DNA of 32,478 nt from an uncultured bacterium (lineage in GTDB: Bacteria; Patescibacteriota; Minisyncoccia; Phycocordibacterales; GWA1-40-21): contig CAINLW010000009.1 in the NCBI GenBank assembly GCA_903850545.1, positions 66,311-98,788 on the forward strand, written 5' to 3'. This document shows positions 25,706 through 31,170 of the stretch, piece by piece. A program made the translations under genes and the position numbers. Each line of letters starts with the position of its first letter. Within the stretch, counting starts at the first letter, position 1. The notes under the pieces are model-generated. The model saw only the letters and a list, made by a program, of their open reading frames with translations, was not told the DNA's origin and ran no database searches.

Positions 25706-27154
25706 TTATTTTTTCTTCTTAATTTCCAACCCCAAATCTCTCAATAAATCTGCAGATACTGGACCAGGAGTATTCATCATCAAATCTTTTCCTTCGCCTG
25801 TCTTTGCAAAAGCAATAACTTCACGAATGTTTGGCTCATTTTCTAAAATCATCATCATTCTATCAAGACCCCAGGCTATTCCTCCATGTGGTGGCGCTCC
25901 AGTAGCAAGGGCACCCAATAGCTGACCATATTCACTTTCAATTTTATTATCATCAAAACCCATAATTTCAAGTACTTTTCTTAAAGCTTCTGGTTTATGA
26001 TTTCTAATACTACCGCCACCCATTTCATTTCCATTCAAGACCAAGTCAAACTGCGCTGCGATAATTTTTTCAATATTAGTCTTATTCATCAAATCACTCA
26101 TTGATTCTTGTTTTGGTGTTGAAAACGGATTATGAGTAAATGTCCATTTTCCTTCATCGGTTTTTTCAAACATTGGAAAATCAACTATCCAAGCAAAAGC
26201 GAGTAAATTTGGATCGTTCTTATCTGTCCTTGTATCAGGCTTGTCTGTTCCATATTTTTCCATAGCCTCTTTATATGGAATTTTTGGAAAAGGAATTTGT
26301 TGAATTTTCTTTTGGGGATATAGTTTTTGGACAATTTCAATAATGGCTTTTTCGTTTACAGCCATTACGTCTTCTTCGGTAACAAAACTCATTTCCAAGT
26401 CCATTTGCGTAAATTCTGGTTGTCTATCACCCCTTGAATCCTCGTCTCTAAAACATCTAGCAAATTGAAAATATTTTTCAAATCCGGAAACCATTAAAAG
26501 CTGTTTGTACTGTTGCGGAGATTGTGGAAGCACATAAAAACTTCCACGTTCAAGTCTGGAGGGAACTATAAAATTTCTTGAACCTTCTGCTGTTGCGTTG
26601 GTAAGATTTGGAGTTTCAATTTCACAAAAACCTTCTTTTTCAAGGATATTTCTGGTGAGTAAAACAACCTTTCCACGATTACGAATATTCTTTTGCATTC
26701 TCGATCTCCTTAAATCCAAAAATCTATTCTTTAAACGAGCCTCTTCGTTTATTTCTATTCCATTACCACGAACATCAATTGGTGGAGTAATCGCCTCGTT
26801 TAAAACTACAAGTGAAAGCATTTCAATTTCAACCGCTCCATTTACTTCATCTTTTTTTACCATTCTTTCTGGGCGGGCATTTACTTTTCCCGTAACCTCA
26901 ACGACCCATTCAGGTCTTACTGTATTCGCCGATGTATGAGCTTCGGTATGATTTGGCAAAGCTACCATCTGAACCTTTCCAGACATATCTCTCAAGTCAA
27001 TAAAAATTAGTTTACCGTGATCACGTCTAACATCCACCCATCCACAGATTTTTACTTCCTCTCCAACTTTTTTATTTAATTCTCCAATGTATGTGCGTTC
27101 CATCCCATTAGAAATTTTACCTACTGTATTTTCCTTCTTTTTGATATCACTCAT
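25706..27154 (-). CDS. aspS: Aspartyl-tRNA synthetase lacking the GAD insertion
   Basis: 482 residues against about 590 for the usual bacterial enzyme. The OB-fold anticodon domain (GWVDVRRDHGKLIFIDLRD) and class II motifs are bacterial-type: RFLDLRR (motif 1), FARCFRDEDSRGDRQPEFTQ (motif 2) and GIAWGLDRMMMIL (motif 3). The roughly 110-residue GAD domain that normally lies between YGTDKPD and the WIVDFP strand is absent; the two are only 13 residues apart. The residue after RRD is His, where E. coli has Leu; this His has been linked to tRNA-Asn recognition in non-discriminating enzymes, so the protein may also charge tRNA-Asn. It is controlled, with the small gene before it, by the T-box at 27601-27889. 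Start: ATG 27154; a second ATG 17 codons later is possible. Confidence 0.96.
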   Translation of the reverse strand: MSDIKKKENTVGKISNGMERTYIGELNKKVGEEVKICGWVDVRRDHGKLIFIDLRDMSGKVQMVALPNHTEAHTSANTVRPEWVVEVTGKVNARPERMVKKDEVNGAVEIEMLSLVVLNEAITPPIDVRGNGIEINEEARLKNRFLDLRRSRMQKNIRNRGKVVLLTRNILEKEGFCEIETPNLTNATAEGSRNFIVPSRLERGSFYVLPQSPQQYKQLLMVSGFEKYFQFARCFRDEDSRGDRQPEFTQMDLEMSFVTEEDVMAVNEKAIIEIVQKLYPQKKIQQIPFPKIPYKEAMEKYGTDKPDTRTDKNDPNLLAFAWIVDFPMFEKTDEGKWTFTHNPFSTPKQESMSDLMNKTNIEKIIAAQFDLVLNGNEMGGGSIRNHKPEALRKVLEIMGFDDNKIESEYGQLLGALATGAPPHGGIAWGLDRMMMILENEPNIREVIAFAKTGEGKDLMMNTPGPVSADLLRDLGLEIKKKK

Positions 27155-27238: not shown

Positions 27239-27583
27239 TTAATCTTTTTTAGGTCTTATAAAAACTAGATATTGTTTGTCTTTTAGAGCCAATTCTTTCG
27301 CCATATTATTAAACTGCTCTTGTCCCCATATTAACCTATCATTTTGTAATTTTTCTGTATTTAAATCGAGTACTAACTCAACATCATTTTTACCGCTTTC
27401 CGAATATTTTTTTATTATATCAGATTCAGTTTGTATAGGAATATCTACAAATCTATCTTCTTCTGTAGAATATGCATATTCTGTTAATTTTTCTTCACCA
27501 ATAAATCCCCAACCATTGTTTGCCTTTTCTGTTTTCACTTCTTCGAGACTTGGATGTCTTGGTAAATTGTTTGATTCATTCAT
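27239..27583 (-). CDS. Unknown 114-aa protein, first gene of the T-box operon
   Basis: I do not recognise this protein. It is soluble, acidic in the middle and contains no membrane segment: LPRHPSLEEVKTEKANNGWGFIG, then EEDRFVDIPIQTESDIIKKY, DVELVLDLNTEKLQNDRLIWG and a lysine-rich end, YLVFIRPKKD. It starts 18 bases after the T-box terminator and ends 84 bases before aspS, with no terminator between them, so both answer to the same tRNA signal. The codon choice is AT-rich like that of its neighbours. It may be a synthetase partner or an unrelated passenger. Confidence 0.75.
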   Translation of the reverse strand: MNESNNLPRHPSLEEVKTEKANNGWGFIGEEKLTEYAYSTEEDRFVDIPIQTESDIIKKYSESGKNDVELVLDLNTEKLQNDRLIWGQEQFNNMAKELALKDKQYLVFIRPKKD

Positions 27584-27600
27584 AAATTATTTTATTAATT

Positions 27601-27649
27601 AAAAACGCCCTCGCAAAAACCAAAAAATATTTTGATTTTTGCGAGGGCG
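27601..27649 (-). terminator. T-box-controlled terminator
   Basis: A 14-bp perfect stem CGCCCTCGCAAAAA with TTTTTGCGAGGGCG, extended by U-G and C-G pairs, has a 12-base loop and TTTTT at 27605-27601. Its first strand is the same CGCCCTC used by the antiterminator, so the two folds exclude each other. Confidence 0.95.
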
Positions 27650-27889
27650 AACGAGTTCGCGGTGCCACCTCACTTGCTTGCCCGAACAAATTATTATTTG
27701 TTTTAGGGTCAACTCATTTACGCCCTAAAAATGGATTACCATTTCGGGCACGGGGTTCTACTGTGGACGAACACTTATAACCAAGTGTTTTAGCCCGTTT
27801 CCTCCCCAAGTTTAGCCACTCACCTTTTATAAGGTGTGTCGGCCGACGTTGTGTTTTCCACTTTTTAACAAATGGCAACGTCATAACTT
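27601..27889 (-). promoter_or_regulatory. T-box riboswitch (transcription attenuator) upstream of aspS
   Basis: The minus strand carries the T-box core GAGGTGGCACCGCGAA (27671-27656). The antiterminator is complete: GAGG pairs with CCTC (27646-27643) around the 7-base bulge TGGCACC, and GCGAA pairs with TTCGC around CTCG. The bulge TGGC would pair with a tRNA 3' end GCCA, i.e. discriminator G, as in tRNA-Asp and tRNA-Asn. The competing terminator uses the same CGCCCTC. Upstream are a short Stem III (AACAAAT/ATTTGTT, 7 bp), a region with GGGG/CCCC (27807-27804 with 27755-27752) whose internal loop has GAA facing AGTA like an S-turn, and a Stem I region closed by AAGTT/AACTT. I could not fix the specifier: GAC occurs at 27882-27880 and 27840-27838, AAC at 27855-27853. 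Uncharged tRNA should switch the operon on. Confidence 0.92.
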
Positions 27890-27927: not shown

Positions 27928-27986
27928 TTGACAATAATGTATATTAGTATATAGTTTTTTTGAACGATCCAAAAATCAAAAGGAGG
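27928..27986 (+). promoter_or_regulatory. Promoter and Shine-Dalgarno site of the 102-aa gene
   Basis: TTGACA (27928-27933), a 16-base spacer and TATAGT (27950-27955), then AGGAGG (27981-27986) nine bases before the ATG at 27996. The leftward T-box transcript must start nearby: a TATAAT on the minus strand lies at 27915-27910. Confidence 0.8.
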
Positions 27987-27995
27987 GCATGAAAC

Positions 27996-28304
27996 ATGCT
28001 CGAAAAGAAAAATATCAAAGGTAAAGTAACTGCGGTAGATATCCAAGTCGCTCTCGGTCGGCTAGATGGTATATCCGGTACTTGGACGAATTTTCAAATT
28101 GATAGTCTACCCGAAATTGTAATTTGCTTCCCATGTCTATTCGGCTTGACAACTGGAGATACGGTAAAAATACCTTATCTTTACCTAAGCAAAAAAATGC
28201 CGATGAATAGTGACACAAAAACCATGTGGGTTATAAAAGAAGGAGGTAAAATAATCGTATGGCGGAAAGGCATAAAGATTTTTACATTAGTCATCTTAGA
28301 ATGA
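27996..28304 (+). CDS. Unknown 102-aa protein in a stand-alone cassette
   Basis: I do not recognise this protein. It is small and strand-rich, without signal peptide or membrane segments: KGKVTAVDIQVALGRLDGI, then GTWTNFQIDSL, TTGDTVKIPYLYLS and MWVIKEGGKIIVWRKG. The G-K-V-x-A-V-D start and the alternating pattern would suit a small beta-barrel, which is a guess. The gene has a near-consensus promoter, an AGGAGG ribosome site and its own terminator, and its base composition is richer than its neighbours', as for the genes at 1984-2388 and 31271-31879. It stands between the T-box and the ABC exporter gene, facing the latter. Confidence 0.75.
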   Translation: MLEKKNIKGKVTAVDIQVALGRLDGISGTWTNFQIDSLPEIVICFPCLFGLTTGDTVKIPYLYLSKKMPMNSDTKTMWVIKEGGKIIVWRKGIKIFTLVILE

Positions 28305-30174: not shown

Positions 30175-31170
30175 TTAATAGATTTCAACTCCCACTTTTT
30201 CTCTCACTTCTTTCATTTTCTTTTCAGCATTCATCGAAACCCTTTTACCGCCATCCCTCAAAATATCTAGAACAGTGTCCATATCTTGCGCGAGCATTTG
30301 TCTTTTCTCTCTCATCGGTTTTATAAATGCTGACAAATCCGCAATAAGCAATTCTTTCGCTTCCTTATAGCCCATTCCACCATTTTTATATTTTGCTTCC
30401 AGTTTTTTCAAAGCATCACCTTCAAGTAATAACTTATGAATTGCAAAAATTGTTGATTCTTCCGGATTTTTTGATTCTGCAACCCCCTTAGAATCGGTAG
30501 GAATTTTCATAACAGCCTTTTTTATTTCTTCGTCAGTAGCAAAAAGTGGAATTACATTATCATAACTTTTACTCATTTTTCTTCCATCTATTCCAATAAC
30601 AGTTTCAACATTTGGTAATATAAAAGGCTCTGGCATTTTAAATGTTTCTCCAAAAATCCTATTAAACTTTTGTGCTGTGTCTCTAGCATATTCCACATGT
30701 TGTTTTTGATCTTGCCCCACTGGAACTATATCAGCATCTTGAATTAAAATATCAGACGCCATTAATAATGGGTAATCAAAAAGTCCGACGTTTATTTCTT
30801 TATTCTTTGCTTCTGCATCTTTGTAAGCATGAGCTCGCATAAGATATGGCATTGTAGTAATACAATTAAAAATCCAACCGAGCTCGGCAACTTGCGGAAT
30901 ATCTGATTGTTTAAATAACGTCACTTTTTTTGGATCAAGACCAATCGCTAGATAATCAAGCGCAACATCAATAATCCCCTGTTTGAGTTCTTCCCTATTT
31001 TGAACTGTTGTCATCGCATGATAATCAGCAATAAAAATATAACTTTCAAATTTGTTTTGAAGATCAACAAACTGCCTCATCGCACCAAAATAATTTCCGA
31101 TATGAACTCTGCCTGTAGGTTTTACACCGGAGATGAGTATCTTTTTTGAATTTTCATTATGTTTTAACAT
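30175..31170 (-). CDS. trpS: Tryptophanyl-tRNA synthetase
   Basis: 331 residues, normal length. Class I signatures: ILISGVKPTGRVHIGNYFGAMRQ with HIGN, and the KMSKS loop GRKMSKSYDN. IFIADYHAMTT, FKQSDIPQVAELGWIFNCIT and LMASDILIQDADIVPVGQDQKQHVEYARD are all as in bacterial TrpRS. The message looks leaderless: an extended -10 box ends seven bases before the ATG. The ABC exporter gene follows in the same transcript. Confidence 0.97.
   Translation of the reverse strand: MLKHNENSKKILISGVKPTGRVHIGNYFGAMRQFVDLQNKFESYIFIADYHAMTTVQNREELKQGIIDVALDYLAIGLDPKKVTLFKQSDIPQVAELGWIFNCITTMPYLMRAHAYKDAEAKNKEINVGLFDYPLLMASDILIQDADIVPVGQDQKQHVEYARDTAQKFNRIFGETFKMPEPFILPNVETVIGIDGRKMSKSYDNVIPLFATDEEIKKAVMKIPTDSKGVAESKNPEESTIFAIHKLLLEGDALKKLEAKYKNGGMGYKEAKELLIADLSAFIKPMREKRQMLAQDMDTVLDILRDGGKRVSMNAEKKMKEVREKVGVEIY

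Follow-up and report, generated by a model that had tools for sequence, protein, structure and literature searches.

T-box riboswitches are known mainly from Firmicutes and Actinobacteria, and the aspS/gatCAB leader of Clostridium acetobutylicum was reportedly found by Saad et al. in 2013 to be a two-codon T-box that reads Asn and Glu codons. The class I T-boxes of Firmicutes generally carry a long Stem I with an IDTM, and the prevailing view is that this elbow-binding module of Stem I is generally required in transcriptional T-boxes, and Stem II in truncated ones (PMC7583486). The actinobacterial translational ileS T-box (class II) has an ultrashort Stem I with a kink-turn and an apical specifier, no elbow-binding IDTM, a Stem II S-turn and a IIA/B element (PMC7583486, PMC10651847). 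A 2008 survey placed T-boxes in only a few phyla (PMC2494555), and the class II model of TBDB was searched in Actinobacteria and on truncated class I matches (PMC7778990). Within the open-access literature, we found no report of T-box riboswitches that also deals with Patescibacteria, with Parcubacteria or with the candidate phyla radiation; prior notice elsewhere is possible.

By its sequence and predicted folding, the leader at 27889-27601 (minus strand) upstream of aspS, in the 32,478-nucleotide stretch of patescibacterial DNA analysed here (the window), is a T-box riboswitch. It combines a class I-like output with an aptamer plan like that of the actinobacterial ileS class, and it fully matches neither description. 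Patescibacterial leaders share with the Firmicutes transcriptional T-box (RF00230) the T-box core, the antiterminator/terminator switch and the aminoacyl-tRNA synthetase genes under control, but they lack the IDTM, have a Stem I of 3-7 bp and fall under the Rfam cut-off (RF00230 matches 27 of 60 relatives at E<=0.1 and none of the 60 above its gathering cut-off). When compared by architecture with the actinobacterial ileS class, many of them have the base helix, UGA/GAG, an apical codon followed by a purine, AGUAGA and the IIA hairpin. In contrast to that class, their output is an intrinsic terminator rather than Shine-Dalgarno sequestration, their specifiers include Asp, Asn, Thr, Ser, Tyr and Val besides Ile, some have no Stem II, and in the window, where the S-turn motif is present, the kink-turn is apparently replaced by a hairpin junction. 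As in C. acetobutylicum, a T-box linked to the indirect Asn-tRNA route would control a non-discriminating aspS, but the window's single short Stem I is predicted to read AAC, and phylum-wide the specifier before aspS is AAC or GAC.

Structure of the leader and its genes

The original prediction placed a T-box with an exactly paired antiterminator and a mutually exclusive terminator ahead of a small orphan gene and aspS, and we recovered this arrangement and gene order. Its start, 27889, proved to be the exact first base of the Stem I base helix. All named antiterminator elements (GAGG/CCTC and GCGAA/TTCGC around TGGCACC) were present, as was the terminator that reuses CGCCCTC, although the latter has 20 bp and not 16. 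The ATG of the small ORF lies 17-18 nt past the U-tract, in agreement with the predicted distance of about 18 bases. The parts of the leader, in the 5' to 3' direction of the transcript, and the two downstream genes are as follows.

27885..27889 with 27808..27812, minus strand: Stem I base helix AAGUU/AACUU, in the unforced minimum-energy fold; its counterparts in relatives covary (AAGC/GCUU, ACC/GGU, GAC/GUC, GUC/GAC)
27876..27882 with 27845..27851, minus strand: Stem I, GACGUUG/CAACGUC, from the fold; the homologous stem covaries in relatives
27858..27875, minus strand: hairpin CCAUUUGUUAAAAAGUGG (18 nt) in the Stem I loop, 5' of the specifier, from the fold; L038 and L004 have a similarly placed inserted hairpin
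27852..27857, minus strand: putative specifier loop AAAACA, with AAC (Asn) at 27855-27853 and then the conserved purine A27852; its placement against the Stem I 3' strand matches relatives
27814..27844, minus strand: hairpin GGCC...GGCU, an insertion that separates Stem I from the 3' base strand, from the fold; L028 and L038 have a similarly sited hairpin
27752..27807, minus strand: Stem II, GGGG (27807-27804) with CCCC (27755-27752), a covarying stem in relatives
27803-27798 and 27762-27756, minus strand: Stem II motifs AGGAAA and S-turn-like AGUAGAA, corresponding to the conserved AGAAA...AGUAGA of relatives
27765..27796, minus strand: dispersed hairpin repeat at the Stem II tip, GGGCTAAAAC...GTTCGTCC
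27722..27749, plus strand: dispersed hairpin repeat in the linker, in the opposite orientation
27713..27720, minus strand: UAAAUGAG, a conserved linker motif (in L010, L028, L033 and L038) at the IIA/B site of fuller relatives
27680..27709, minus strand: dispersed hairpin repeat in the linker, ACCCTAAAAC...GTTCGGGC
27643..27671, minus strand: antiterminator GAGG-UGGCACC-GCGAA-CUCG-UUCGC-CCUC, from RF00230, the model R2 (described below) and the fold; its helices covary in relatives
27601..27649, minus strand: intrinsic terminator (20 bp, loop of 4, U-tract), from terminator prediction and the fold
27239..27583, minus strand: 114-aa ORF between the T-box and aspS, with its ATG at 27583
25706..27154, minus strand: aspS, bacterial-type aspartyl-tRNA synthetase (NF001750, 607.8 bits; TIGR00459, 553.2 bits; PF00152)

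The features that define a T-box, namely core, switch, specifier and discriminator, are all found in this leader, from which tRNA binding is predicted. The antiterminator helix (GAGG/CCUC, 27671-27668 with 27646-27643; GCGAA/UUCGC, 27660-27656 with 27651-27647) holds the T-box sequence RRUGGNACCRCG with its UGGN in the bulge UGGCACC (27667-27661), where UGGC is complementary to a tRNA 3' end GCCA with discriminator G. The terminator hairpin (27649-27606), which is followed by TTTTT to 27601 and coincides with the top-ranked terminator prediction, shares the antiterminator 3' strand, and hence the two structures are mutually exclusive. The base helix, Stem I, Stem II and the terminator are all present in the unforced minimum-energy fold, whose z-score is -6.8, with none of 100 shuffles folding equally well.

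The search with RF00230 that the original prediction proposed yielded 25.1 bits (E=0.0011 on 461 bases), which is below the gathering score of 93 because Stem I is reduced. In contrast, R2, which was trained without the window, matched the leader with 42.1 bits (E=2.1e-8) and gave its sole match at E<=10 in the 32 kb; the E-values of such home-made models are rough, and the support throughout is comparative or sequence-based. A promoter search located no strong minus-strand promoter upstream of the T-box. A near-consensus sigma-70 promoter (TTGACA-16-TATAGT, 27928-27955, plus strand) is directed at a divergent ORF (27996-28304), away from the T-box.

The host genome (985 kb, 64 contigs, 97% complete) had been suspected to be patescibacterial, which was borne out by the nearest named relatives of its aspS, those of Ca. 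Taylorbacteria (80% identity), followed by other Parcubacteria-group lineages. The encoded AspRS is about 100 residues shorter, with model matches split at the site of the missing middle (GAD) domain, and its true start probably lies about 13-18 codons into the ORF, as relatives align from residue 13-18. In some family members (G008, G009), the AspRS is instead a more divergent one (37% identity). The 114-aa ORF, which had been taken as part of the operon, has the predicted position, with no Pfam or NCBIfam match and no relative in viral contigs. It looks incidental to the T-box, which in close relatives is followed either directly by aspS or by a RhuM/Fic gene in this slot. A RhuM-type gene occupies it in L028 and L038, with a Fic domain in L038, and the slot seems to take in foreign genes. 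Ahead of trpS (30175-31170, minus strand), no T-box was detectable by R2 or Rfam.

The putative specifier and the tRNA probably sensed

We conclude that this leader is very probably a transcription-attenuating T-box that senses uncharged tRNA-Asn. The choice between tRNA-Asp and tRNA-Asn had been left open in the original prediction; the specifier loop, AAC followed by A as in close relatives, favours tRNA-Asn. Specifically, the specifier is most likely AAC rather than an Asp codon because AAAACA is the sequence of the window loop that corresponds to the apical specifier loop in relatives. Note that R2 misaligns Stem I of the window, and the AAC call was made by manual homology with L033, L010, L028 and L038. 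The corresponding loops are AAAACAA (L033) and CAAACA (L010) in congeners and CAAACA (L028) and ACAACA (L038) in other family members; AAAACA, CAAACA and CUGACA are among those found at this position in relatives.

The predicted specifier agrees with the tRNA and gene complement. The genome's own tRNA-Asn (anticodon GUU) has G73, as anticipated from the bulge UGGC. A tRNA-Asp gene was absent among the 42 RF00005 matches in the host assembly, probably owing to a draft-assembly gap, and thus the Asp discriminator could not be compared. No asnS was detected above cut-off in any of the 12 family genomes or of the 62 genomes with Asp/Asn T-boxes, and gatB was present in all 12 and in 59 of the 62. 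An Asn specifier ahead of aspS makes sense under these conditions, since AsnRS is lacking and GatCAB is nearly universal in the sampled genomes, so that AspRS probably also charges tRNA-Asn and GatCAB amidates the product. A shortage of charged tRNA-Asn would therefore call for more AspRS. Within the family, the specifier is GAC in G011, GAU in G009 and AAC in the remaining T-boxes found, and this occurrence of AAC or GAC ahead of aspS fits an enzyme that would serve both tRNAs.

The best-surviving alternative, which we nonetheless consider improbable, is that the T-box senses tRNA-Asp through GAC at 27840-27838, either alone or together with AAC as a two-codon leader for both tRNAs of a non-discriminating AspRS. 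The hairpin 27844-27814 does contain this triplet, within a GACA stretch at its foot, Asp codons occur in 35 of 65 AspRS T-boxes elsewhere in the phylum, and UGGC would suit the G73 generally found in tRNA-Asp equally well. However, the hairpins of L028 and L038 at the same site are plain repeats that lack such a triplet, and it is AAC that occupies the position homologous to the apical specifier loop, as it does in the congeners G002 and G003. GAC was dropped as a candidate specifier, because alignment with L033, L010, L028 and L038 puts AAC in the homologous loop.

In the mechanism that we propose for tRNA-Asn sensing, the anticodon GUU would pair with AAC, the specifier within the reduced Stem I, while the leader is being transcribed, with the Stem II S-turn assisting this interaction. 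If the tRNA is uncharged, its 3' end GCCA would pair with the bulge UGGC and stabilise the antiterminator, and polymerase would continue through the small ORF and aspS. If it is charged, the 20-bp terminator would form and transcription would end. Sequence and comparison show the antiterminator, the terminator, Stem I with its specifier, Stem II, the matching tRNA-Asn with G73, the lack of asnS above cut-off and the presence of gatB; tRNA binding, charging-dependent switching and the charging of tRNA-Asn by this AspRS are inferred.

Inserted hairpins and the dispersed repeat

The suspicion that Stem I is reduced or unusual held in that Stem I is indeed reduced, but the leader owes its length to inserted hairpins, of which three belong to a dispersed repeat, and not to a hidden canonical Stem I. 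The only addition within Stem I is a 6-bp hairpin, and a long Stem I with a distal IDTM is absent. Exact copies of the palindrome CCTAAAAC-N-GTTCGG number nine genome-wide, compared with none for a reversed-pattern control, and a looser scan found three copies in the window, all within the T-box leader (27680-27709, 27722-27749 and 27765-27796). Elsewhere in the genome, copies occur in the thrS leader, abutting tRNA genes (Ala, Thr, Phe), often there as head-to-head pairs, and just upstream of ORFs (L264-L270). In G001, the aspS T-box seems to be split across two contigs at such a repeat. A cloverleaf-like fold of 27749-27680 was considered as a tRNA mimic and rejected, as it consists of two repeat copies in opposite orientation that are pairable either way.

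A hairpin between Stem I and the 3' base strand is found in the window, L028 and L038. In these leaders, the GA that would normally belong to the kink-turn is able to pair with UC instead, which suggests that a three-way junction replaces the kink-turn.

Inserted hairpins could impair folding, and a degenerate, non-functional T-box broken by palindromic insertions would account for the large additions in Stem I, Stem II and the linker. It would also accord with the fact that no T-box was found before aspS in 4 of the 12 family genomes (G004, G005, G008, G010), from which it follows that the element is dispensable and could be decaying. We grant this explanation a slim chance, slightly below that of tRNA-Asp sensing, because the insertions are confined to loops, junctions and the linker, whereas the base helix, specifier, S-turn motif, antiterminator and terminator are intact. 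Moreover, pairing has been kept through two-sided changes, as in the antiterminator (GAGG/CCUC versus AAGG/CCUU) and in the pair that closes the base helix, which is U-A in the window but C-G in the majority of relatives, and L028 and L038, with similar insertions, retain all core parts.

T-box leaders across the Patescibacteria

Far from being a lone case, the leader belongs to a group that spans the phylum and has an architecture of its own. Alignment of leaders from related genomes, a check that had been put forward for those upstream of aspS, revealed strong covariation of the helices and located the specifier triplet. A model built from 12 aligned leaders (R1) had matches in 83 of 297 genomes of the order (E<=0.01), and one built from 41 realigned leaders with six helices (R2; the window was not in its training set) had matches in 142 of 380 genomes across the phylum (E<=1e-4), with up to six per genome. 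R2 was also run on 51 additional aspS loci, of which some ten belong to other phyla; it gave four matches at about E<=1e-4, all of which were patescibacterial T-box loci, and it matched none of the approximately ten non-patescibacterial aspS loci. In alignment A3, 162 cells were changed on both sides compared with 57 in shuffles (score 0.475 versus 0.189), and in A5, which includes phylum-wide leaders not used for the model, the values were 394 and 112 (0.582 versus 0.179; a level reached by none of 500 shuffles). Model-fitted alignments lean to the structure of the model and the sequences are related, so the values lend support without being exact; sliding the helix partners destroyed the signal.

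The typical leader has a base helix of 3-4 bp (variants AGC/GCU, ACC/GGU, GAC/GUC, GUC/GAC and GGC/GCC), UGA/GAG as in a kink-turn, a stem of 3-7 bp and an apical loop of 5-8 nt with the codon and a purine. Many leaders also have a IIA hairpin, and an AGUAGA-type S-turn motif is present in 86 of 107 parsed leaders. Two of the 21 without it are Thr leaders misaligned by R2 (L021, L227), which makes the true losses somewhat fewer. In four others (L024, L019, L014, L230), Stem I and the antiterminator are separated by just 23-24 nt, which leaves no room for Stem II. Leaders without Stem II are 88-96 nt long; three of them (L014, L019, L024; 88-90 nt) precede aspS and retain both the antiterminator and the terminator.

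Specifier, downstream gene and bulge agree across this set, in which downstream proteins were clustered and representatives were named by NCBIfam. In the AspRS cluster, 35 of the 65 parsed leaders have Asp and 29 have Asn specifiers, and the last one (L013) also has GAC. The specifier is AUC in 30 of 31 leaders of the Ile/ValRS cluster (bulge U wherever read), GUC in a separate ValRS leader, AGC in both SerRS leaders and UAC in the one TyrRS leader. Because R2 misaligned the Thr leaders, these were searched directly, which recovered nine covarying hairpins (e.g., GUGG-CUACCAA-CCAC), all of which have an ACC or ACU specifier and bulge A. One such thrS T-box lies in the genome of the window itself (L001; G000:C19, 10036-10205, minus strand), with ACC in the 7-nt loop of this same hairpin, the bulge UGGA and one copy of the dispersed repeat in its linker. 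The bulge suits the genome's own tRNA-Thr, which has U73; within this one genome, the variable bulge base fits the discriminator, UGGC with G73 of tRNA-Asn and UGGA with U73 of tRNA-Thr. Such agreement, together with phylum-wide homologues and covariation, leaves a negligible probability that the leader is a plain intrinsic attenuator or a chance resemblance with no tRNA sensing, for which the Rfam score under the gathering cut-off could be invoked.

Another leader type (L007, L011, L003, L016, L031, L236) has GGGUUGGG in a Stem I-like hairpin, with UGG (Trp) as a possible specifier. Downstream of L007 is a PALP enzyme resembling TrpB and downstream of L011 a glycosyl transferase family 3 protein resembling TrpD, and therefore patescibacterial T-boxes may also control genes of amino-acid metabolism.

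On balance, we favour the broader view that the transcriptional T-boxes of Patescibacteria, with their ultrashort Stem I, form a distinct class that spans the phylum. In some members, only a codon hairpin and an antiterminator would remain, joined by a linker of about 24 nt without Stem II; aspS leaders would alternate between the Asp and Asn codons of one non-discriminating AspRS; and the window would represent a variant with a hairpin-derived three-way junction in place of the kink-turn. These leaders would be exceptions to the view that an IDTM or Stem II is generally required (PMC7583486), and genome annotation at Rfam thresholds overlooks them. So minimal a tRNA-sensing RNA is directly testable with RNAs of about 90 nt. 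The occurrence of T-boxes in about a third of the sampled Patescibacteria bears on the question of the mechanism's age, and these elements lend a regulatory logic to organisms whose amino acids must come from hosts.
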